Positions 17,366 through 51,134 of a DNA stretch of 64,000 bases are shown here, piece after piece. Position 1 is the first letter of the stretch. The number at the start of each line of letters is the position of its first letter. This DNA is from Betaproteobacteria bacterium (GTDB taxonomy: Bacteria; Pseudomonadota; Gammaproteobacteria; Burkholderiales; Casimicrobiaceae): positions 372,001 to 436,000 of the forward strand of contig BOKS01000001.1 of assembly GCA_016861105.1 (NCBI GenBank). Direction: 5' to 3'. The position numbers and the translations under genes were made by a program. The notes beneath the pieces are model-generated. The model saw only the letters and a list, made by a program, of their open reading frames with translations. It did no database searches and was not told the origin of the DNA.

Positions 17366-17393
17366 TTATCGGCACGATTATTCGAGGGCTTGA
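17366..17393 (-). promoter_or_regulatory. Predicted FliA (sigma-28) promoter for fliL
   Basis: On the minus strand TCAAGCCC, 12 bp, then GCCGATAA, an exact -10 match to the sigma-28 consensus (TAAAGTTT-N11-GCCGATAA). It lies about 55 bp before the fliL ATG. The same TCAAG-type -35 recurs in the other predicted FliA promoters of the window. Confidence 0.7.
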
Positions 17394-24761: not shown

Positions 24762-24949
24762 GGGCGCGAAAGAGCGGATAAGCCGAGGAAATCGGCGACG
24801 CTTCGGAGCCCCCGTCAGGCAACTTCCTACAAGTCCGGACCCGTCCCAAATGCCGTCGCATTCCGGTGGAATTCGGACGACAACGAAGTGCGCGCTCGCG
24901 TTAAGGTCGGCGCCAAACACCAGCAACGGGACCACGGGGCGCGGGAACG

Positions 24950-25261
24950 ATGGAAATCAAGTCGATCAACTCGCAGATCGCGCAGGCGGTCGCGGCGCTG
25001 AAGCCACCGGCCGCCGCCGTCAAGCCGCAGGAAAGCGGCTTCGACTTCGTCGCTTCGCTCGACTCGGCGCTGAAGTCGGTGAGCCGCAACCAGCAGACCT
25101 CGGCCGAACTGCAGCGCCAGTTCCAGCTCGAGAACCCGAACGTCAGCCTCGAGGAGACGATGATCGCGATGAACAAGTCGCAGATCTCGTTCTCCGCGGC
25201 GGTGCAGGTCCGCAACCGGCTGGTGCAGGCCTACGAACAGATCATGAACATGCCGGTGTAG
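24950..25261 (+). CDS. fliE: Flagellar hook-basal body protein FliE
   Basis: FliE is the adaptor between the MS ring and the rod and the first exported rod-side protein. The 103-residue product has the expected ending with SLEETMIAMNKSQISFSAAVQVRNR and LVQAYEQIMNMPV. It is transcribed away from fliF across a 256-bp intergenic region, the usual betaproteobacterial layout. Confidence 0.96.
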   Translation: MEIKSINSQIAQAVAALKPPAAAVKPQESGFDFVASLDSALKSVSRNQQTSAELQRQFQLENPNVSLEETMIAMNKSQISFSAAVQVRNRLVQAYEQIMNMPV

Positions 25262-28974: not shown

Positions 28975-29835
28975 TCATCGTTTCTGCTTCACGTGCTTCT
29001 CCAGCTCGGTGAAGCTGGGGCGCTCGGTCGAGTACAGGACCTTGCGGCCGAATTCGACGGCCACCGCCGGCGCGTAGCCCTGCAGGCTCGCCAGCAGCGT
29101 GGCCTTTACGCATTGCAGCTCCTTGGTCGCCTCGTCGGCCTTCTGCTCGAGCAGCGCGGCCAGCGGACTGACAAAACCGTACGAAAGCAGGATGCCGAGG
29201 AAGGTGCCGACCAGCGCGCCCGCGATCATCGCGCCGAGCTCAGACGGCGGCTTGCCGACCGAGGCCATCGTTTTCACCACGCCGAGCACCGCCGCGACGA
29301 TGCCGAATGCGGGCAGGCCGTCGCCGACCTTCTGTATCGCGTGCGCCGGTACCATTGCTTCGTGGTGGTGCGTGTCGATCTCCTGGTCCATCAGGTTCTC
29401 GATCTCGAGCGGATTCATGTTGCCGCTGACCATCATCCGCAGGTAGTCGCAGATGAACTCGACCAGGTGGTGATCGTTGCCGACGACCGGATGCTTCTGG
29501 AACAGCGGGCTCTTGTGCGGGTCGTCGATGTCGGACTCGATCGCCATCATCCCTTCCTTGCGCACCTTCGACAGGATGTCGTACAGAAGGGCCATCAGCG
29601 CCATGTAGCGCGCCTTCGTGTACTTCGAGCCCTGCAGCAGCTTGGGCAGCGCCTTGATCGTGGCGTTGACCGTTTTGTTCGAGTTGCCGACGAAAAACGC
29701 GCCGAGCGCGGCGCCGGCGATGATCACCATCTCGATCGGCGCGGCGGTCGCGAGGATGCCGAACTTGCCGCCGGCGAGCGCATAGCCGCCGAAGACGGCC
29801 GTGAGCACGACGACGTAACCGATGATGACGAACAT
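28975..29835 (-). CDS. motA: Flagellar stator protein MotA
   Basis: MotA forms the proton channel ring with MotB and pushes on FliG. The 286-residue protein has four transmembrane helices, the large cytoplasmic loop with charged residues, and the conserved segments HAIQKVGDGLPAFGIVAAVL and GTFLGILLSYGFVSPLA. It is the first gene of motA-motB-cheY-cheZ and lies behind a predicted FliA promoter. Length matches E. coli MotA (295). Confidence 0.96.
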   Translation of the reverse strand: MFVIIGYVVVLTAVFGGYALAGGKFGILATAAPIEMVIIAGAALGAFFVGNSNKTVNATIKALPKLLQGSKYTKARYMALMALLYDILSKVRKEGMMAIESDIDDPHKSPLFQKHPVVGNDHHLVEFICDYLRMMVSGNMNPLEIENLMDQEIDTHHHEAMVPAHAIQKVGDGLPAFGIVAAVLGVVKTMASVGKPPSELGAMIAGALVGTFLGILLSYGFVSPLAALLEQKADEATKELQCVKATLLASLQGYAPAVAVEFGRKVLYSTERPSFTELEKHVKQKR

Positions 29836-29930
29836 TCCCCGACTGCCCTCTGGATTCGCGTGGTTCGCGCAGGGCGTCCGGCCGTGTTTTCCACAAGGTC
29901 CGCCCGCCCCGGTCCTTACCGCTGACAGCT

Positions 29931-30123: not shown

Positions 30124-30281
30124 AATCCGGCGAGGCGAATCTTCGTTAGCGCGCCTGCCGCATCGTCCGTTCGGCCGGCGCTGCGTGCAGCTTTAGTCTG
30201 GGCGCGCAGTGGCGACCGGCGCGGCGAGTTTCGGCGATAGAAACCGCCGCGCCGGCGCTCTGCACCAGGCGGGCGGCTGCG

Positions 30282-30309
30282 GGAAAAGAAAGCCCGGCCG
30301 AAGCCGGGC
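30282..30309 (-). terminator. Intrinsic terminator of flhDC
   Basis: On the minus strand GCCCGGC, loop TTCG, GCCGGGC, then a T-rich tract (TTTCTTTTC). It lies 70 bp after the flhC stop. The UUCG tetraloop and GC stem make it a strong rho-independent terminator. Confidence 0.85.
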
Positions 30310-30378
30310 AAAGGTCGGAGGAGAAAACCAGGAGGAGCCGCTGTTTTTGGCCGGTCGAGCGGCGCGACCGCATTCGGA

Positions 30379-30921
30379 TCAGTGAACCGCTTCTTCGCCG
30401 CGCACGCTGCCCTTGCCCTTGCCGGCGCGCGCCGGCGGCTCGCACAGCCCGCAGACGTAGTTCTTCGTCAGCTCGAAGGTGTGCGTGACGAACTTGCCGC
30501 CGCACTTGCAGCACGGCGTCAGCGTCACCATGCCGGCGTCGACGAACTTGACCAGGCGCCACGCGCGCGTGACCGACAGCAGCGGATCGAGGCTCTGCGC
30601 GCGGATCTGCTCGAGGTACAGCTCGTAGGCCTTGATGATCGCGTCGATCTCCTCGAGCTCGGTCGTCTTGTTCAGGTACTCGTAGATGTTCAGGAACAAC
30701 GACGAGTGGATGTTCGGCTGCCAGGTCATGAACCAGTCGGTCGAGAACGGCAGCATGCCGCGCGCCGGCGACTCGCCCTGGACTTCCTTGTACAGCCGCA
30801 GCAGCCGCTCGTACGACAGGTCGGTTTCGGACTCCAGCACCTGCAGGCGGGCGCCGAGCTTGATCAGCGCGATCGCGCGCTGGATCTGCTTGCTTTCGGT
30901 GACGATGCTCTTGATACGCAT
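30379..30921 (-). CDS. flhC: Flagellar master regulator FlhC
   Basis: FlhC pairs with FlhD as FlhD4C2, the transcription activator at the top of the flagellar hierarchy. The 180-residue product has the helical core (QIQRAIALIKLGARLQVLES) and the zinc site with cysteines in CCKCGGKF and CGLC. The ATG at 30921 has a GGGGAG SD. The gene follows flhD by 28 bp and ends before a strong terminator. FlhDC in a betaproteobacterium with FlhF and no FleQ fits Burkholderiales. Confidence 0.97.
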   Translation of the reverse strand: MRIKSIVTESKQIQRAIALIKLGARLQVLESETDLSYERLLRLYKEVQGESPARGMLPFSTDWFMTWQPNIHSSLFLNIYEYLNKTTELEEIDAIIKAYELYLEQIRAQSLDPLLSVTRAWRLVKFVDAGMVTLTPCCKCGGKFVTHTFELTKNYVCGLCEPPARAGKGKGSVRGEEAVH

Positions 30922-30949: not shown

Positions 30950-31297
30950 TTAGCTGACCGAGGCAATCTGTCCGGCCATGACGATGTTGGCGTGCAGCCC
31001 GGCGACCGCGCCGGTGCCGGTGGCCTTGGCCTTCGAATGGCTGGTCAGCAGGTTCCACACCATGTCGTCGTCGAAACGGAAGCGGCAGATGAGTTGGTTC
31101 GCGCCGGCGATCTTCATCAGTTGCGACGGCGTCAGCTGATCGACGATGTTGGCGACCTCTTCCGAGATGCCGAGCCGGTACATCGCCTGCGCCTTGTCGG
31201 CGCGGATCATGTGCTGGGCGAGCACCAGATAGGCGAGGTTGACCTCGCGCACTTCCTCCAGCAGTTGTTCGTTGACGGTCGGATTGCTGTTGCTCAT
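30950..31297 (-). CDS. flhD: Flagellar master regulator FlhD
   Basis: The 115-residue product is a helical FlhD with EVNLAYLVLAQHMIRADKAQAMYRLGIS and QLTPSQLMKIAGANQLICRFRFDD-type segments, which form the dimer and the FlhC interface. The ATG at 31297 has an AGGAGG SD. It heads the flhDC operon; the 900 bp before it hold a dyad at 31429-31447 and an oppositely oriented predicted small RNA. Confidence 0.97.
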   Translation of the reverse strand: MSNSNPTVNEQLLEEVREVNLAYLVLAQHMIRADKAQAMYRLGISEEVANIVDQLTPSQLMKIAGANQLICRFRFDDDMVWNLLTSHSKAKATGTGAVAGLHANIVMAGQIASVS

Positions 31298-31428: not shown

Positions 31429-31447
31429 TGTAGGACGGATTCCTACA
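31429..31447. promoter_or_regulatory. Perfect dyad TGTAGGA-N5-TCCTACA upstream of flhDC
   Basis: Two 7-bp arms with a 5-bp centre, 132 bp before the flhD ATG, form an operator-like palindrome. The TAGGA...TCCTA form recalls sites of dimeric LuxR/FixJ-type response regulators such as RcsB, which controls flhDC in enterics. The regulator here is unknown. Confidence 0.5.
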
Positions 31448-31532: not shown

Positions 31533-31559
31533 TCAAGTTCGTCGCGTGCGCGCCGAAAC
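31533..31559 (+). promoter_or_regulatory. Predicted FliA (sigma-28) promoter in the flhD-fliC gap, with no gene behind it
   Basis: TCAAGTTC, 11 bp, GCCGAAAC. The -35 and spacing fit the consensus and the -10 is identical to the one predicted before motA. The next annotated gene on this strand, fliC, has its own better promoter at 32066, and a strong terminator intervenes at 31699-31737. Confidence 0.6.
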
Positions 31560-31565
31560 TGCCGG

Positions 31566-31737
31566 ATGTGTGGTCGCGCAATCGACACGTGAGCCGGTGA
31601 AGGGTTGCGTGCCGGCGGCACGGAGCGCCGAGCGGAAGGCCGGTGCTCCAACACACGCGAATTCGAACTGACGCTGCACCGGTTTCCTCCCCCGCCCTGC
31701 GCGCCGCAGCGACTTCGGTCCTCGGCGCGCTTTTTTT
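31566..31737 (+). ncRNA. Predicted FliA-dependent small RNA
   Basis: The stretch is bounded by a sigma-28 promoter match (31533-31559) and an intrinsic terminator (31699-31737), giving a transcript of about 170 nt whose exact start is inferred. It contains short hairpins such as GTGCC-GGC-GGCAC (about 31612-31622) and GGAGC...GCTCC (about 31621-31649), then an unpaired pyrimidine stretch TTTCCTCCCCC just before the terminator, an arrangement typical of Hfq-dependent base-pairing RNAs. Its pyrimidine tract is complementary to purine-rich SDs. An 8-codon ATG frame at 31566 is the only small ORF near the start. E. coli has sigma-28-dependent sRNAs, but none of known sequence relation. Confidence 0.5.
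31699..31737 (+). terminator. Strong intrinsic terminator with UUCG tetraloop
   Basis: GCGCGCCG (31699-31706) pairs with CGGCGCGC (31723-31730); inside the loop GAC-TTCG-GTC forms a further stem. Seven T follow. No protein gene lies upstream on this strand for kilobases, so the terminator most simply ends a small RNA. Confidence 0.85.
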
Positions 31738-32224: not shown

Positions 32225-33031
32225 ATGCCTCAAGTCATCAATACCAATCTGATGTCGCTGAATGCGCAGCGCAACCTGAACACGTCGCAGGTCGCGATGG
32301 CCACCGCCGTGCAGCGGCTGTCGTCGGGCCTGCGCGTCAACAGCGCGAAGGACGACGCAGCGGGTCTCGCAATCGCCGAGCGGATCAACGCGCAGGTGCG
32401 CGGCATGAACGTCGCGATGCGCAACGCCGCCGACGGCATCTCGCTCGCGCAGACGGCCGAAGGTGCGCTGGGCGCGATCGGCAACAACCTGCAGCGCATG
32501 CGCGAACTGGCGGTGCAGGCCGCGAACGCCACGTCGTCGGGCGATCTGACCGCTCTGAACTCCGAGTATCAGCAGCTCGTCAGCGAAAACACGCGCTTGA
32601 TCAACGTGACCTCGTTCAACGGCCAGGCGTTGCTGTCGGGCGCGGCGACGCTGACCTTCCAGGTCGGCGCGGGCACGACGTCCAACGACCGCATCGACGT
32701 CACGGTGTCGTCGTTGTCGATCACGTCGGGCGACCTGACTTCGACGACCAACGCGCAGACGGCGATTGCCAACATGGACACGGCGTTGAACACGGTCAAC
32801 AGCCTGCGCGCCACGTTCGGCGCGACGCAGTCGCGCTTCGAGGCGGTGATCAGCGGCCTGCAGGTCTCGGCGGAAAATGCCGCAGCGTCGCGCAGCCGGA
32901 TCATGGATGCGGACTACGCGGCCGAAACCGCCGCGCTGACCCGCGCGCAGATCCTGCAGCAGGCCGGCACAGCGATGCTGGCGCAGGCGAACGCGATGCC
33001 GCAGAACGTGCTGTCGCTGCTGCGCGGCTAA
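32225..33031 (+). CDS. fliC: Flagellin FliC
   Basis: The filament subunit, exported through the FliPQR gate and chaperoned by FliS. The 268-residue protein is short, with the conserved D0/D1 N-terminal part ([20 protein letters not shown], then [20 protein letters not shown]) and C-terminal part ([20 protein letters not shown]...[12 protein letters not shown]). The central variable domain is only about 80 residues and rich in Ser and Thr, which would be the likely glycosylation sites. The SD is AAAGGAG. The gene is monocistronic, ending at a clear terminator. Confidence 0.97.
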
Positions 33032-39811: not shown

Positions 39812-42800
39812 CTAGGCGGGTGCAATCGGCGCGCCGATCAGCCGATCGACGATGCCGCCGGCTTCGGCTCTTGCGGACTTCCACCACTCGATGGCCGACG
39901 TCGGGTCGACATTCGGCTTGGCGTACGCAGGGGGTTCTTCACCGGCCAGGCGGAACAAGGACGCCCACGTGCACAGATAGTTGACCGTCACCCGGTTGAT
40001 CCGAACGGAGCGCAGCCCCTCCGATCGCAGCGTGGCCGCGTAGACCCGATCGCCGATGCCGGCGAGCGGCCGCGGCATCGTCGCCCAGCGGGCGATCGTG
40101 TGAAAAGCGCCGCGGAGGAGGAACAGGCAGCTCGTGTCGACATGGCCGTCCCGATCGTCCTCGTCCGCTTTGACGGGGAGGACGGATCCGTCCATGCGCA
40201 CGAAGCGCCGCCGCGCGACCACGTAGTCGGGTCGGGATCCGTCGAACGCGCTGGCGACACATGCGGCGACGTGGTCCTGCTCCAACCAGTTGTCGGCATC
40301 GAGGAAGCAGACCGCGTCGAAACCTTCGCTGACCGCGAGCAGGCCTCCGATGGCGCGCGGCGTATTGCCGAAGTCCGCATGTGCATGGTCGAGCCGCAGG
40401 TGTCGCACACCCGCGCCGTCGAGCCACGGTTGCGCGAAACCGTCGGCAACGACGAAGTGGGTGGCTCCGTAGGTTTGAGCGCGAACCGAGTCGATGCAAC
40501 GCTCGATCAGCCGCCGGTCTTCCTTGTAATAGGGCGTGACGACGGCGACCTTGAGCGGCCGGTCTTCGCGCTCGGCGGGGCAGGCGTGTCCCAGTCGCTG
40601 AGCGGCCCACGGCGATATCGTGCACGTCGGCGGCGGGGTGGCCGGTGCAACGAGCGGCGCGGGCGGGAGGTTGTCGGCGGCGACGCCGGCGGCCCCCGCC
40701 GGCAGCGGCGCAAGCCGGACACCTTCGGCGCGCAGTGTGTCGCCGACGAACTTGTCTTCGTACAGCTCGCCGTCGATCTCGGATGGAAAGCGCAGCGTGG
40801 CGAGAGCGAAGGCGCGCAGCGCGGCCGCGGACAGGTAGTAGAAGGGCCCATTGGCCCACGTCCCGCGAAACCTCTTGCCGTACGGCGTCCGGTTCAGCAC
40901 CGCATCGCGGCACTTGTTCCAGTGCCAGGTGCGATCATGGTCGGGGGAACCCACCTCGAACCCGGCGTAGTCGACGGCCCCTCCGATCAGCGCCCGCACA
41001 TTGTCGACGAAGCGCGTGCCGTCGGTGATCTCCAGATCGTCGTCGATCTTGAATACCGCACATCCGTGGCGCTCGTACGCATGGACGAACGCTGCACGGA
41101 CTTTCTTGGGCAGCGACTCGTAATCGTCGGGCGCGTCGACTTCCACGAGGTCGGTGTGTGCCGGAACGTCGGCGCCGCGCCCGACCACAAGCCGCAAGGG
41201 AAGGGCGTTCAGCGCCGACAGCTTCGCGTGCAGCCGGAGCGCCCGCTCGAAGTACTTCTCGCAGGTGATGATCAATCCGATCGCGCCCGGGCGCGCGGGT
41301 TCGCGGCACAGCCTCAGGGCCGACTCGTAGGCGGTTTGCAGGGACGCGTCGTACGGACGCAGGCTCAACGCTGTTCGCAGCCTCACGAGCTCGCGGTCGA
41401 CCGGGCTGCCGGGCGAGGCTGTGGCCGCCGGAGCCCTGCGTTCGCTTCGGATGTGCGGCGCCTCGGCGCCGGCGTTGTCGCGGCCCGCGTCGTCGCGGAT
41501 CACGGCGCGGTTGGGGCCGCGTTGTTCCGGCGGCAGATGATCCGCCGGCAGCCCGCTGCGCCACCGCTCGAACATCCGTTCGTACAGCGCCTCCAGATTC
41601 CGCGCGTAGCGTTCGCTGTCGAAGAGCGCGCAGGTGCTGCGCCGGCTCCTGAGCTTCTCTTTCAGCGCCGCGAGCGCCGATGGCTCCTGCGCGAGGCGCA
41701 GAGCGATCGACGCGTATTCCTCGAGCGAAGCGGCGATGAGCTCGGACAGCTCCGCCGCGTGCAGCAGGCTCGCCGCGACCCGCGACGCGAACGTTTCGCC
41801 GGGACAGGTCACCACCGGAACGCCCGCCCACAGCGCGTCGCTCGCGGTGGTGTGCGCGTTGTACGGCAGCGTGTCGAGCACGAGGTCGGCGTTGGCAAGC
41901 CGCGCGAGGTGCTGCGCGAGCGGCAGCTTGGGCGCGAAGATCAGGCGCTCCGGGCCGACGCCGCGCGCGCGCGCTTCGGCGCGCAGCCTGTCCTTCGCCT
42001 GCAGGTTGGCGTCGAGCAGCCACAGCACGCTGCCGTCGACCTTGGCGAGCAGCCGGCACCAGAGATCGAACATCGCCGGCGTGATCTTGTAGGTGTTGTT
42101 GAAGCAGCAGAACACGAAGCCGCGGTCGGGCAGACCGCATTCGGCTCGCGTGACGGCCGGACCGATCGGGCGCTTGCGATCGTTGGGCTGATAGCAGTCG
42201 GGCAGGTAAGCGAACTTCTCCGTGTAGTCGCTCGCCGCTTCGGGCGGCGTGACGACCGGATCGGTCACGATGTAGTCGATCAGCGGCGTACCCAGGGTGC
42301 CGGGATGCCCGAGGAAGTTCACTTGGATCGGCGCAGCGCTAAAGCCGAGCACTTCGGGCCGACTGCCGTAGGTGTAGCCCTTCAGGTCGACGAGGATGTC
42401 GATACCGTCGGCGCGGATGCGCTCGGTCATGGCCGGCACCGTCGCTTCGCGCAGCTCGACGAAGTGCTCGGCCGCGGCCTCGATGCGTCGGCGCATCGGC
42501 GAGCGATCGTCCGGGCCGTACGAGTACAGGAAGATCTCGAAACGGTCGCGGTCGTGCAACTCGAGCACGTGCGCCAGCAGGTAGCTCGTCGCGTGCTCGT
42601 AGAAGTCGTTCGACAGATACCCGATCCGTATGCGGCCGGGCCGACGCTCGGCGGGTGTCCCGCGCGGCAGCGCCCGCGGAGTGCCGATGTGCACGCACGC
42701 GAACGCGGAAGCGGACCGCAGATGCTCGGCCGCCGTCGCGCCGGGGATCGACAAATGCGTGAATGCGACCGGCTGTTGCTCCGGATGCGCGGCCTGCGCG

Positions 42801-43444
42801 GCCGCGAGTCCGCGTAGATCCGCGTCGAGTTGCTCCCAGTGGCAAGCGTGCATCGACTGGTGCACGAGCGCTGACCACGCGTAGACGTTGCCCGGCTCGA
42901 GAGTGACGACGGTGCGGAAACACTCGGCGGCGAGCAGCGGCGCGCCGAGGCGCGCGAAGGCGTTGCCGAGGCCCATGTGCGCGGGGATGCAGTCGGGCTT
43001 GCGCCGCAGCGCTTCCATGAACTTTTCGGTCGCTTCCCGGAATTGCTCGGCTTGCAGCAGCGCCAAGCCGGCCTCCAGAAAGACGTTCGCGGCATTGTCC
43101 GTAGCACGAGCGGGGGCCGATGGCACTTGTGCCGTCCGTCCCTGCATCGAGAGCACGTCCGCCAACATGCGTTGCGCAAGCTCGGAACGCGGATCGAGTT
43201 CGAGCGCGCGCCGCGCCGCGCGCTCCGCGGCTGCGGCGTCACCCTGCTTGCGCCGCGCCTGCGCGAGATTCAGCCAGAACAGCGGATCCTTCGGGGAACG
43301 CTCGATCGCTGCCTCGAACGCCAACGCGGCGCCGTCCCAGCGACCCTGCTGCATCAGGGCCAGACCCTGCTGATACTTCTTCTCCGCCTTCGGTACGACC
43401 TTGGACGGTCGGTGCGCAGCCCCCGCCGCGATGCTGTTCCGCAT
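39812..43444 (-). CDS. TPR protein with three glycosyltransferase modules (GT41 + GT31-like + GT2)
   Basis: A single 1210-residue frame. Residues 23-195 are TPR repeats. Residues 271-635 are a SPINDLY/O-GlcNAc-transferase-type GT41 domain with SNDFYEHATSYLL (H284), APIQVNFLGHPGT and DTLPYNAHTTASDALWAG. Residues 720-915 resemble a GT31-type transferase with the metal motif VFKIDDDLEI (D801-D803) and YEDKFVGDTL. Residues 964-1170 are a GT2 family domain with VAVVTPYYKED and FLDADN (1048-1051). It lies beside flagellin and a methyltransferase, so stepwise glycosylation of FliC is likely. GT41 proteins modify flagellins in other bacteria; this fusion I do not recognise. Confidence 0.85.
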   Translation of the reverse strand: MRNSIAAGAAHRPSKVVPKAEKKYQQGLALMQQGRWDGAALAFEAAIERSPKDPLFWLNLAQARRKQGDAAAAERAARRALELDPRSELAQRMLADVLSMQGRTAQVPSAPARATDNAANVFLEAGLALLQAEQFREATEKFMEALRRKPDCIPAHMGLGNAFARLGAPLLAAECFRTVVTLEPGNVYAWSALVHQSMHACHWEQLDADLRGLAAAQAAHPEQQPVAFTHLSIPGATAAEHLRSASAFACVHIGTPRALPRGTPAERRPGRIRIGYLSNDFYEHATSYLLAHVLELHDRDRFEIFLYSYGPDDRSPMRRRIEAAAEHFVELREATVPAMTERIRADGIDILVDLKGYTYGSRPEVLGFSAAPIQVNFLGHPGTLGTPLIDYIVTDPVVTPPEAASDYTEKFAYLPDCYQPNDRKRPIGPAVTRAECGLPDRGFVFCCFNNTYKITPAMFDLWCRLLAKVDGSVLWLLDANLQAKDRLRAEARARGVGPERLIFAPKLPLAQHLARLANADLVLDTLPYNAHTTASDALWAGVPVVTCPGETFASRVAASLLHAAELSELIAASLEEYASIALRLAQEPSALAALKEKLRSRRSTCALFDSERYARNLEALYERMFERWRSGLPADHLPPEQRGPNRAVIRDDAGRDNAGAEAPHIRSERRAPAATASPGSPVDRELVRLRTALSLRPYDASLQTAYESALRLCREPARPGAIGLIITCEKYFERALRLHAKLSALNALPLRLVVGRGADVPAHTDLVEVDAPDDYESLPKKVRAAFVHAYERHGCAVFKIDDDLEITDGTRFVDNVRALIGGAVDYAGFEVGSPDHDRTWHWNKCRDAVLNRTPYGKRFRGTWANGPFYYLSAAALRAFALATLRFPSEIDGELYEDKFVGDTLRAEGVRLAPLPAGAAGVAADNLPPAPLVAPATPPPTCTISPWAAQRLGHACPAEREDRPLKVAVVTPYYKEDRRLIERCIDSVRAQTYGATHFVVADGFAQPWLDGAGVRHLRLDHAHADFGNTPRAIGGLLAVSEGFDAVCFLDADNWLEQDHVAACVASAFDGSRPDYVVARRRFVRMDGSVLPVKADEDDRDGHVDTSCLFLLRGAFHTIARWATMPRPLAGIGDRVYAATLRSEGLRSVRINRVTVNYLCTWASLFRLAGEEPPAYAKPNVDPTSAIEWWKSARAEAGGIVDRLIGAPIAPA

Positions 43445-43617: not shown

Positions 43618-44073
43618 TCAGATCTCGCTCGGAAAATCCGGCTCGGCCGCATCTTGCGACTGACCGCCGTACGGATACATCTCGGCCCACGCCTGCGCGT
43701 ATTGGGCGCCGGTGCCGATCCAGGCGACGGTGCCAACCGACAGCGCCGCCGTATACAACGCGGCGACGCGCTCGCCGAAGTTCTCGTCGCAGCGGATCCG
43801 CGCCGCGGACAGCAGGTGCAGATGGCCTTCGACGTAGCGGCGTTCGACGACGCGCATGCCCTTCGCGTAAGGCAGCAGGGACTCGGGCAGTCCGGCGATG
43901 CCGCGGCTGCCGTTGCGCGTGCGCGCGGAGGTGTCCTCGAACCAGACGAAGAGCTCCGTGGGACGCACCCGTGCGGGGGCGGACTGCGCCGAGTCGGCCG
44001 GTTGATGCATTTGCTCGGCGAGCGGGCGCGTGGCGAATTCGGCCAGTTGCTTGACGAGTTCGAGGCGGGTCAT
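43618..44073 (-). CDS. Uncharacterised protein, predicted member of the FliA regulon
   Basis: A 151-residue protein I do not recognise. It starts with a helical, soluble segment (MTRLELVKQLAEFATRPL), has a Pro/Ala-rich break near 25-38, a charged middle (ELFVWFEDTSARTRNG) and a more hydrophobic segment near 107-128 (VAALYTAALSVGTVAWIG), ending acidic. There is no signal peptide. The ATG at 44073 has a GGGGAG SD. A FliA promoter match 47 bp upstream and its own terminator make it a stand-alone late flagellar gene. Function is open. Confidence 0.75.
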   Translation of the reverse strand: MTRLELVKQLAEFATRPLAEQMHQPADSAQSAPARVRPTELFVWFEDTSARTRNGSRGIAGLPESLLPYAKGMRVVERRYVEGHLHLLSAARIRCDENFGERVAALYTAALSVGTVAWIGTGAQYAQAWAEMYPYGGQSQDAAEPDFPSEI

Positions 44074-49649: not shown

Positions 49650-50406
49650 CGTCGTCGGCCGACACCCGACCGACGATCAGGCCGCCGGCCTGCGCCGGCT
49701 GTTCGCGCGACCGTCGCTGCGCGTGTTGCCGGTGCTCGTGCCGGCGCCGCGCTGCCCGCATCGCAACGCGTGGCTCGCGCGGCTTGCCCGGGCCTTTGCC
49801 GCGGCAGGCGAGCGCACCCTCGTGCTCGACGCTTCGCGCGCGCAGCTTGCGACGACCTTCGGGCTGAAGGCGCGCTTCGATCTGCTGCACGCGCTGCGCG
49901 GCGAGTGCGAGGTCGCGCAGGCGCGGCTGGCAATCGACCCCGGGCTCGCCCTGTTGCCGGCCGTGCGCGCATTCGACGACGCCGTGCAGCGCAACGCGGT
50001 GCTGGCCGAGTTGATCGCCGGCGAAGTCGCACCTGCCGAAGGATTCGATCTCGCGATCGCGCTGCTCGCCGTGCCGCACGTTGCGCTGCTGGCCGAGGTC
50101 CCGGGCGAGATCGCGGTGCCGGTCGCGCCGAACGCGCGCGACGTCGCAGCCGCGCTCGAGGCCGTGCGCCAGTGCGGACAGCGCGCGGACATCGCGGGAT
50201 TTCGGTGGCTTTTTTTGGGTATGGACGAAGCGGCAGCCGCTACGCTGGCTCGTCGATTGGCAGCGACCGCGCAGACGTGGACCGCCGCGCCCCTGCGCTA
50301 CGGCGCCGCGGCACGCGGCGCGCGCGATGCCGCGCGCATCGTGCACGCCGCCGCGGGCTGGAACGCGGCGCGGGTCGAGCTGCCCGAACGAGAGAGGATG
50401 TCTTGA
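49642..50406 (+). CDS. flhG: FlhG-like protein lacking the Walker A motif
   Basis: The 254-residue product occupies the flhG (MinD-like flagellar number control) position between flhF and fliA and has a similar alpha/beta pattern (VLPVLVPAPRCPHRNAWLARL, TLVLDASRAQLATTFGL). The expected KGGxGKT ATP-binding loop is missing: the first strand runs into PAPRCPHRN instead. ATP-driven cycling is therefore unlikely. Degenerate FlhG/FleN homologues occur in Burkholderiales, as far as I recall. The alternative is an unrelated protein at this locus, but the fold-level resemblance favours FlhG ancestry. Confidence 0.65.
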   Translation: MRDVVGRHPTDDQAAGLRRLFARPSLRVLPVLVPAPRCPHRNAWLARLARAFAAAGERTLVLDASRAQLATTFGLKARFDLLHALRGECEVAQARLAIDPGLALLPAVRAFDDAVQRNAVLAELIAGEVAPAEGFDLAIALLAVPHVALLAEVPGEIAVPVAPNARDVAAALEAVRQCGQRADIAGFRWLFLGMDEAAAATLARRLAATAQTWTAAPLRYGAAARGARDAARIVHAAAGWNAARVELPERERMS

Positions 50407-51134
50407 AGAGCGACGCCTTCGTGTACAGCGCACGCGGCACCGTCGAGCGCGGGGCCTACGTCAAGCAGTACGCGCCGCTGGTGCGCCGGCTCGCGCACCA
50501 GATGATCGCGCGGCTGCCGGCCAACGTCGAACTCGACGACATGATCCAGGCCGGCATGATGGGCCTGATGGACGCGATCGGCCGCTTCGAGGAGGCGCAG
50601 GGCACGCAGTTCGAGGTGTACGCCGCCAGCCGCATCCGCGGCGCGATGCTCGACGAGCTGCGCGCCAACGACTGGCTGCCGCGCTCGGCGCGCAAGAGCC
50701 AGCGCGACATCGAAAGCGCGATCCACCGCCTGGAAGGCAAGCTCAAGCGCGCGCCGACCGAAACCGAGATCGCCAAGGAGATCGGCATCCCGGTCGCCGA
50801 GTACCAGGAGATGCTCAACGAAGCGCGCGGCGCACAGCTCATCTACTTCGAGGACATCGGCCGCGCCGACGACGACGAGGACTACCTGGAGCGGCACATC
50901 GCCGACGAAGGCGCCGACCCCGGCGACATCCTGCGCGACAAGCGCTTCCGTACCGCGCTGGTCGCCGCGATCGAAGAACTTCCCGAACGCGAGAAGCAGT
51001 TGATGAGCATGTACTACGAACAGGACCTGAATCTGCGCGAGATCGGCGCCGTGATGGGCGTCACCGAATCGCGCGTGTGCCAGCTGCACAGCCAGGCCGT
51101 TGCGCGCTTGCGCGCCAAGCTTAAGCAGTGGTGA
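50403..51134 (+). CDS. fliA: Flagellar sigma factor FliA (sigma-28)
   Basis: FliA directs RNA polymerase to late flagellar promoters. The 243-residue product has region 2 ([38 protein letters not shown]), region 3 ([24 protein letters not shown]) and region 4 with the helix-turn-helix [20 protein letters not shown]. The start is TTG at 50403: it overlaps the flhG stop and has an AGAGAGGA SD. A GTG six codons later is the alternative. Its targets can be seen as sigma-28 matches across the window. Confidence 0.96.

Follow-up and report, generated by a model that had tools for sequence, protein, structure and literature searches.

A candidate FliA-dependent small RNA in the flhD-fliC gap, predicted to pair with G-rich ribosome-binding sites of flagellar genes

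What is transcribed from a flagellar promoter that has no protein gene behind it? In the host assembly (28 contigs, 4.49 Mb) the flagellar cluster lies in the 64-kb stretch of DNA analysed here (64,000 nt, referred to as the window), with flhD and flhC on the minus strand, fliC on the plus strand and, in the divergent gap between them, a putative sRNA gene on the plus strand (Table 1). The original prediction had read this gap as a FliA (sigma-28) promoter match with no protein gene behind it, an unpaired stretch and a GC-rich UUCG hairpin with seven T, giving a transcript near 170 nt. Each part of this description held up: the promoter (12 of 15 consensus positions) and the hairpin were both located and recur in relatives, the predicted RNA is 172 nt long and contains no convincing ORF, and in the predicted fold the C-rich tract is more open than the remaining 5' part of the RNA (mean unpaired 0.65 versus 0.38; 0.51-0.98 for the tract across 10 predicted RNAs). 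An unpaired tract and a terminator with at least six U are the sequence features of Hfq-dependent base-pairing sRNAs, to which the candidate conforms, and an Hfq gene is present in 12 of the 13 genomes searched. Folding stability of the whole RNA is ordinary (z -0.5). A simple terminator scan over 8 kb found 9 terminators (6.4 expected) and omitted the UUCG terminator, probably because its stem is interrupted.

Table 1. Features of the window that bear on the candidate sRNA and its predicted targets.
Feature	Position	Strand	Basis
Predicted target site, fliE ribosome-binding region CACGGGGCGCGGGAACG	24933..24949	+	duplex -16.6 kcal/mol; G-run
fliE	24950..25261	+	TIGR00205, 80 bits (cut-off 30)
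motA	28975..29835	-	TIGR03818, 407 bits
Predicted second target site, motA ribosome-binding region TCGGGGA	29836..29842	-	G-run comparison
C-rich element and terminator, flhC 3' UTR (TTTTCTCCTCCGACC, 30313-30327)	30281..30343	-	R1 match, 22.1 bits
flhC	30379..30921	-	NF009365, 274 bits
flhD	30950..31297	-	NF002783, 127.7 bits; divergent from sRNA
FliA (sigma-28)-type promoter	31533..31559	+	TCAAGTT (31533-31539), N12, GCCGAAAC (31552-31559); 12/15 of consensus
Predicted sRNA	31566..31737	+	172 nt; start set 6 nt past the -10, end at the T-run
C-rich pairing tract TTTCCTCCCCCGCC / UUUCCUCCCCCGCC	31683..31696	+	with the terminator, most conserved part in 11 instances
Intrinsic terminator	31699..31737	+	hairpin 31699-31730, cUUCGg loop; seven T 31731-31737
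Separate FliA promoter of fliC, TAAAGTT-N13-ACCGATAA	32066..32093	+	14/15 of consensus
fliC (flagellin)	32225..33031	+	NCBIfam flagellin models, best 330 bits, under their full-length cut-offs
fliA (sigma-28)	50403..51134	+	NF005413, 303 bits

Other features were seen nearby. On the flhD side of the gap, a palindrome of the type GTAGGA-N-TCCTACA (about 31430-31447; similar in L025, L026, L030, L033 and L035) resembles an RcsB-type box and is a possible regulator site of flhDC. Short tandem GCAATCC-like repeats occupy several intergenic stretches (before 4791, 12695 (-), 13626 (-), 19318 (-) and 51178). The flagellar cluster also contains a 1210-aa ORF (39812-43444, minus strand) with TPR repeats and glycosyltransferase domains of family 41 (PF13844) and family 2 (PF00535), perhaps for flagellin glycosylation.

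FliA recognizes promoters of the consensus TAAAGTT-N11..13-GCCGATAA. Six sites matching at least 12 of its 15 positions occur in the 64 kb, compared with a mean of 0.25 in 40 Markov simulations; besides the site in the gap, three lie 5' of fliC (32066), flaG (33111) and flhB (44238), one is at 17393 on the minus strand and one is intragenic (37220). A stricter pattern (16 fixed bases, up to three mismatches, spacing 11 only) retrieved 44238 alone and missed the 31533 site. Upstream of the element, a promoter scoring at least 11 was found in nine of the ten instances with readable upstream DNA (11-13 in eight relatives; only 9 in L034), against a background of 3.7% among 520 segments of 120 nt drawn at random from other loci. 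A FliA-type promoter is the mark of sigma-28-dependent flagellar sRNAs and, judged by its sequence, the locus carries one; control of the sRNA by FliA is probable.

Conservation was assessed in FlhD relatives taken from genome contigs, the nearest of which are mostly named Burkholderiales or Burkholderiaceae. Tract and terminator were found upstream of flhD in six (L028, L030-L034) of the 12 closest relatives (L025-L036), all except L034 being among those whose promoter scores 11-13. From seven sequences of tract and terminator a covariance model (R1) was built, which gave ten matches at 50-75 bits in the 67 genomes of the relatives' family, namely six model members and four new copies (L123-L126); the next-best matches reached 28 and 24 bits, and none of six flagellar query genes adjoins them. 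Nine of the ten strong matches adjoin flhD, including three of the four new copies, and the tenth (L126), located where its contig ends, precedes fliC and runs in the same direction. The element sits between flhD and fliC in the window, L028, L123 and L125. L034 and L124 show flhD as its one neighbour, the contig ending on the far side, and L126 shows fliC alone, the contig ending on the near side. In L030-L033 it is flanked by flhD and by a gene of the FliT family, with no fliC within reach. The promoter-terminator pair, on whose conservation the original prediction had staked its case, is kept in these relatives, and the covariance search proposed along with it returned strong matches in 10 of the 67 genomes of one family. 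Each of six relatives searched whole (E <= 1e-4) has a single copy. Among 64 genomes of the window's own family, no copy except the window's scores above 26 bits, and an order-wide search of 399 genomes (E <= 1e-6, strict filters, 12 candidates scored per genome) found no other clear copy; its five other matches (L112-L116, 28-40 bits) have no adjoining match to the six flagellar query genes apart from a stray flhC match (E 0.009) in L113. On an FlhDC tree the sRNA is absent at three places (L025-L027; L029; L035-L036), the deciding nodes of which carry 44-73% support. Genome G000 has a second flagellar system on contig C6 (L023, L172), with a second flhD (62% identical), fliC, fliE and flhA, but the assembly has no second strong copy of the sRNA.

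What varies among these copies is mostly the 5' part. The predicted RNA measures 65-129 nt in nine relatives and 172 nt in the window, the stretch from predicted start to tract spanning 9 to 117 nt over all of them, and in three instances it shrinks to 65-66 nt, that is, to leader, tract and terminator alone. L032 and L033 have the identical tract and L030 a variant of it, whereas in L028 and L126 its position is shifted. In the hairpin stem, five of eight pairs are invariant and none shows two-sided changes, so that there is no covariation support for the hairpin; the stem core scarcely varies, and covariation is therefore uninformative here. When terminator-like hairpins were collected by script in the window and the fetched sRNA-positive contigs, a C tract preceded 11 of 26, and all 11 belong either to the flhD-side element or to a related element in the flhC 3' UTR, some copies of both having been overlooked by the script. 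The C tract is a specific feature and no general property of terminators. Since promoter, tract and terminator all recur in relatives, the arrangement is not due to chance, and the sRNA-like gene itself is very probably real. No Rfam 15 family matches the flhD-side element above threshold: RF02278 (gathering 50) gives nothing up to E 5 and RF00519 (suhB/MmgR, gathering 41) gives 18.8 bits. A literature search covering mainly papers outside subscription found no description of this element.

If the C tract pairs with ribosome-binding sites, as the original prediction proposed for Shine-Dalgarno sequences, candidate targets should carry complementary G-runs. By duplex energy, fliE ranks first of the 56 genes called in the window. 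Genes were then compared between genomes with and without the sRNA, requiring at least four sRNA-positive and three sRNA-negative orthologues, which left 22 of the 56; fliE is first of the 22 both in duplex energy and in the separation of the two groups. All seven sRNA-positive genomes with fliE have a G-run of at least four in its ribosome-binding site: GCGGGGG in five of them, CGAGGGGGA in L126 and CGGGGCGCGGGA in the window. Such a run is missing from all six close sRNA-negative relatives, which are the genomes at the three places of absence on the FlhDC tree. Mean duplex energies calculated with the window's tract are -18.3 kcal/mol in the positive and -8.8 kcal/mol in the negative group, with no overlap. 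Also in favour of fliE, the FliE of four sRNA-negative genomes is closer to the window's (74-80% identity) than is that of the other six sRNA-positive ones (60-72%). When the site is paired with the tract of its own genome, the longest Watson-Crick helix reaches 8 bp in two genomes, 7 in three, 6 in one and 5 in one. Scored by the longest G-run within 25 nt upstream of the start, a measure picked after fliE had been seen, only fliE (7 versus 6 genomes) and motA (6 versus 6) separate the groups fully; two fully separating genes arose in 207 of 20000 label permutations (1.0%) and at least one in 590 (3.0%).

The fliE comparison, drawn from 30 genomes searched, leaves out L030-L033 (fliE not found; the L031 contig was not fetched), G487 (no match), G483, 11 distant genomes and the second fliE copies of G000 and G451. 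The 14 further starts in G483, the distant genomes and the second copies include a single G-run of four, in G064, which has no sRNA match. The window itself is the weakest case, with five contiguous pairs to fliE, and 15 of its 595 ATG starts, fliE among them, pair equally well or better. The G-run of fliE is also partly folded (unpaired 0.20-0.79). The comparative data, which are predictions and not a measurement, favour a partnership between sRNA and fliE; whether fliE is the main target in genomes that have it is a call on which we are almost evenly divided.

For motA, all six sRNA-positive and none of six sRNA-negative genomes have a G-run of at least four in the ribosome-binding site. The helix in the window has five contiguous pairs, or six with a G-U pair; because the helices are short motA is less certain, and from sequence comparison it is possibly a second target. 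That the G-runs of fliE and motA track the presence of the sRNA speaks for the proposed pairing with Shine-Dalgarno sequences, at genes that the original prediction had not named. Of its own candidates, flhC and the gene at 43618 fared less well. G-runs precede six of the 56 window genes, including flhB, flhC, flhF and the gene at 43618. At flhC, a run of at least four is present in the window, L028, L030, L032 and L034 and absent from L033, L123, L124 and L125, and this patchy pattern fails to separate genomes with and without the sRNA; pairing reaches -16.5 kcal/mol in L030 with its own tract (equal to fliA there, among the best read) and is poor in L031 (-4.4), L033 (-9.3), L124 and L125. 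We rejected flhC as a conserved target; it is a possible one in L030. The gene at 43618 was dropped, GGGGAG being missing in all three sRNA-positive relatives whose start could be read (L030, L032 and L033), as were flhD and fliC, whose pairing is inconsistent across relatives.

One branch of relatives bears on how exclusive fliE can be. In L030-L033 (genomes G456-G459) searches for FliE and FlhA each returned 0 of 4. Of the 13 other genomes searched, 12 yielded FlhA (in G454 just a fragment), and in G493 it was not found. These four keep flhDC, the sRNA, the FliT gene, a YcgR gene, a 43618 homologue and fliA in one stretch. The sRNA is kept here where no fliE was found, and fliE is therefore not its sole target unless four assemblies miss both genes; other targets likely exist in this branch. 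Perhaps the four assemblies do miss structural genes, or perhaps the regulators outlived the flagellum. Because FlhA was not found either, we rated fliE lower and a broad range of targets higher.

The related element in the flhC 3' UTR, which gives R1 matches of 22-36 bits, occurs in the window, L025-L030, L034 and L123-L125, and in four of these (L025, L026, L027, L029) without the flhD-side sRNA. TCCTCCG is invariant across 11 aligned copies, and in L030 both elements contain TTTCCTCCGCATTT. The flhC 3' UTRs of L032, L033, L035 and L036 have plain terminators, and the C-rich element was not seen there. From its position and sequence the element is likely a 3'-UTR-derived sRNA. None of its predicted targets stands out (best z -1.8, flhC), and its Rfam scores are 18.2 bits for RF02278 and 26.7 bits for RF00519. 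In L013 and L014, CCCTCCTCCTCCC precedes a hairpin in the flhC 3' UTR, a possible further relative of these elements.

A distinct and highly conserved RNA follows flhC in 13 loci of Rubrivivax/Leptothrix type, recognized by sequence pattern (L038, L040, L043, L049, L052-L054, L056, L059, L060, L066, L068 and L073; L132 is a further locus). It has a FliA-like promoter of 9-12/15 (nine of the 13 reach 11, against the same 3.7% of 520), then GTCTCCTCC with a CUCCUCC tract, and a two-hairpin 3' end. Searched with a model of it (R2), 300 genomes of the order yielded four matches. The strongest, L132 with 69 bits, lies between flhC and motA, and the other three, with 36-43 bits, have no flagellar neighbours. 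Deep Rfam scans of L049, L052 and L059 returned at best RF02423, with 23.8 of 80 bits, in L049.

How might the flhD-side sRNA act? The reading we put forward, tentatively and with a little under half of our confidence, is that a free-standing FliA-driven sRNA beside flhD pairs through its C tract with ribosome-binding sites rich in G, foremost at fliE and probably at motA, likely blocking translation. Once hook-basal bodies are complete and FlgM has been exported, FliA would start the RNA, and with the assistance of Hfq the C tract would cover the fliE ribosome-binding site and repress FliE. FliE helps to start the rod; with less of it, fewer new rods would form and the number of new flagella would be held down. 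The circuit would be a late-to-early feedback acting on G-rich ribosome-binding sites, in which motA, as a second target, would limit stators. According to the sections of PMC10578931 drawn on here, FlgM export frees FliA in E. coli, and the end of flagellum synthesis is less investigated than its start in bacteria. If this reading is true, cells likely cease initiating flagella once the first ones work, through an RNA-based FliA-to-FliE feedback in Betaproteobacteria whose sRNA and target site are present or absent together, and flagellar sRNA families are added that lie below threshold for every Rfam 15 family.

The persistence of the sRNA in L030-L033, where neither fliE nor flhA was found, also suits a broader role, in which a real and FliA-driven sRNA acts as a general anti-Shine-Dalgarno RNA, feeding back on FlhDC or exerting a general effect, with fliE and motA two of many targets. 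The ribosome-binding site of flhC, GGGGAG in the window and GCGGGGGAG in L030, fits such a role, as do the G-runs before other window genes and the many predicted targets of the betaproteobacterial sRNA S17 (PMC11722255, as far as cited here). Yet flhC does not track the sRNA and pairs weakly in L031, L124 and L125, and only fliE and motA separate the genomes among 22 genes; we give this account an appreciable minority of our confidence. Much less probable is that no trans-acting RNA is made and that the transcript is an aborted or insulating leader, whose terminator stops FliA transcription or read-through from reaching the next gene. The window's transcript does point at fliC, which has a stronger FliA promoter of its own, but the C tract is conserved along with the terminator although the preceding 5' part varies over 9-117 nt, 15 other terminators lack such a tract, and the tract co-occurs with a distant site in fliE.

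The likeness of the two elements that flank flhDC, and the sequence that they have in common in L030, could mean that the RNA serves the flhC 3'-UTR element as a partner or sponge, or is a copy of it, and regulates no mRNA. The tracts, however, are alike and not complementary, and tract-to-tract sponging is therefore not expected, shared targets being suggested instead, which makes this account a slim prospect. An 8-codon ATG frame can be read by eye from 31566, but in three instances the tract begins just 9-12 nt after the predicted start, with no ATG in between, and a small protein as the product is scarcely credible. Returning to pairing with ribosome-binding sites, a wider scheme can be drawn that we regard as speculative and rather unlikely. 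Twin anti-Shine-Dalgarno RNAs would frame flhDC, one made with the flhDC message and one fired later by FliA, as a two-stage clock, trimming the synthesis of basal bodies and stators at first and shutting it off later. The same logic would operate in Rubrivivax-type Burkholderiales through a third, FliA-driven RNA after flhC, and L030-L033 would have retained flhDC, fliA and the sRNA for other tasks once the flagellum was lost.

The original prediction had also presented the sRNA as a betaproteobacterial counterpart of the E. coli FliA-dependent sRNAs MotR, FliX, FlgO and UhpU. FliA-type promoter, terminator and conservation agree with this, as does the predicted role within the flagellar cascade; the counterpart relation is by analogy only, since the E. 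coli sRNAs are UTR-derived (PMC10578931, sections cited here) whereas the sRNA here is free-standing, with its own promoter and terminator, and divergent from flhD. MotR and FliX moreover pair inside coding sequences, in contrast to a tract fitted to ribosome-binding sites, and fliE is absent from the main text of that study. Repression of fliE has a precedent in Salmonella SroC, which represses fliE and flhBAE by base pairing; SroC, as presented in the cited part of PMC9438474, is released from the gltIJKL mRNA by RNase E rather than driven by FliA, and its locus is unrelated. Campylobacter jejuni, distant from the window's host, has two sRNAs that are alike by description (PMC11187230, in the passages used): FlmR (CJnc170), a FliA-dependent sRNA of 47 nt that, when overexpressed, shortens the flagella and reduces motility, and FlmE (CJnc230), which carries a putative anti-Shine-Dalgarno motif but, unlike the sRNA here, is RpoN-dependent, processed from the flgE mRNA and represses flgM and Cj1387c. 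In Betaproteobacteria, the 'toxic sRNA' S17/bdhR1 (RF02278) differs in its locus near coq7 and in its sigma-A promoter with RNase E processing, and is similar in build, with about 70 nt, a single-stranded 5' part rich in C and U, and a terminator; as for the sRNA here, it is predicted to pair at places where this would disrupt ribosome binding (PMC11722255, same part).
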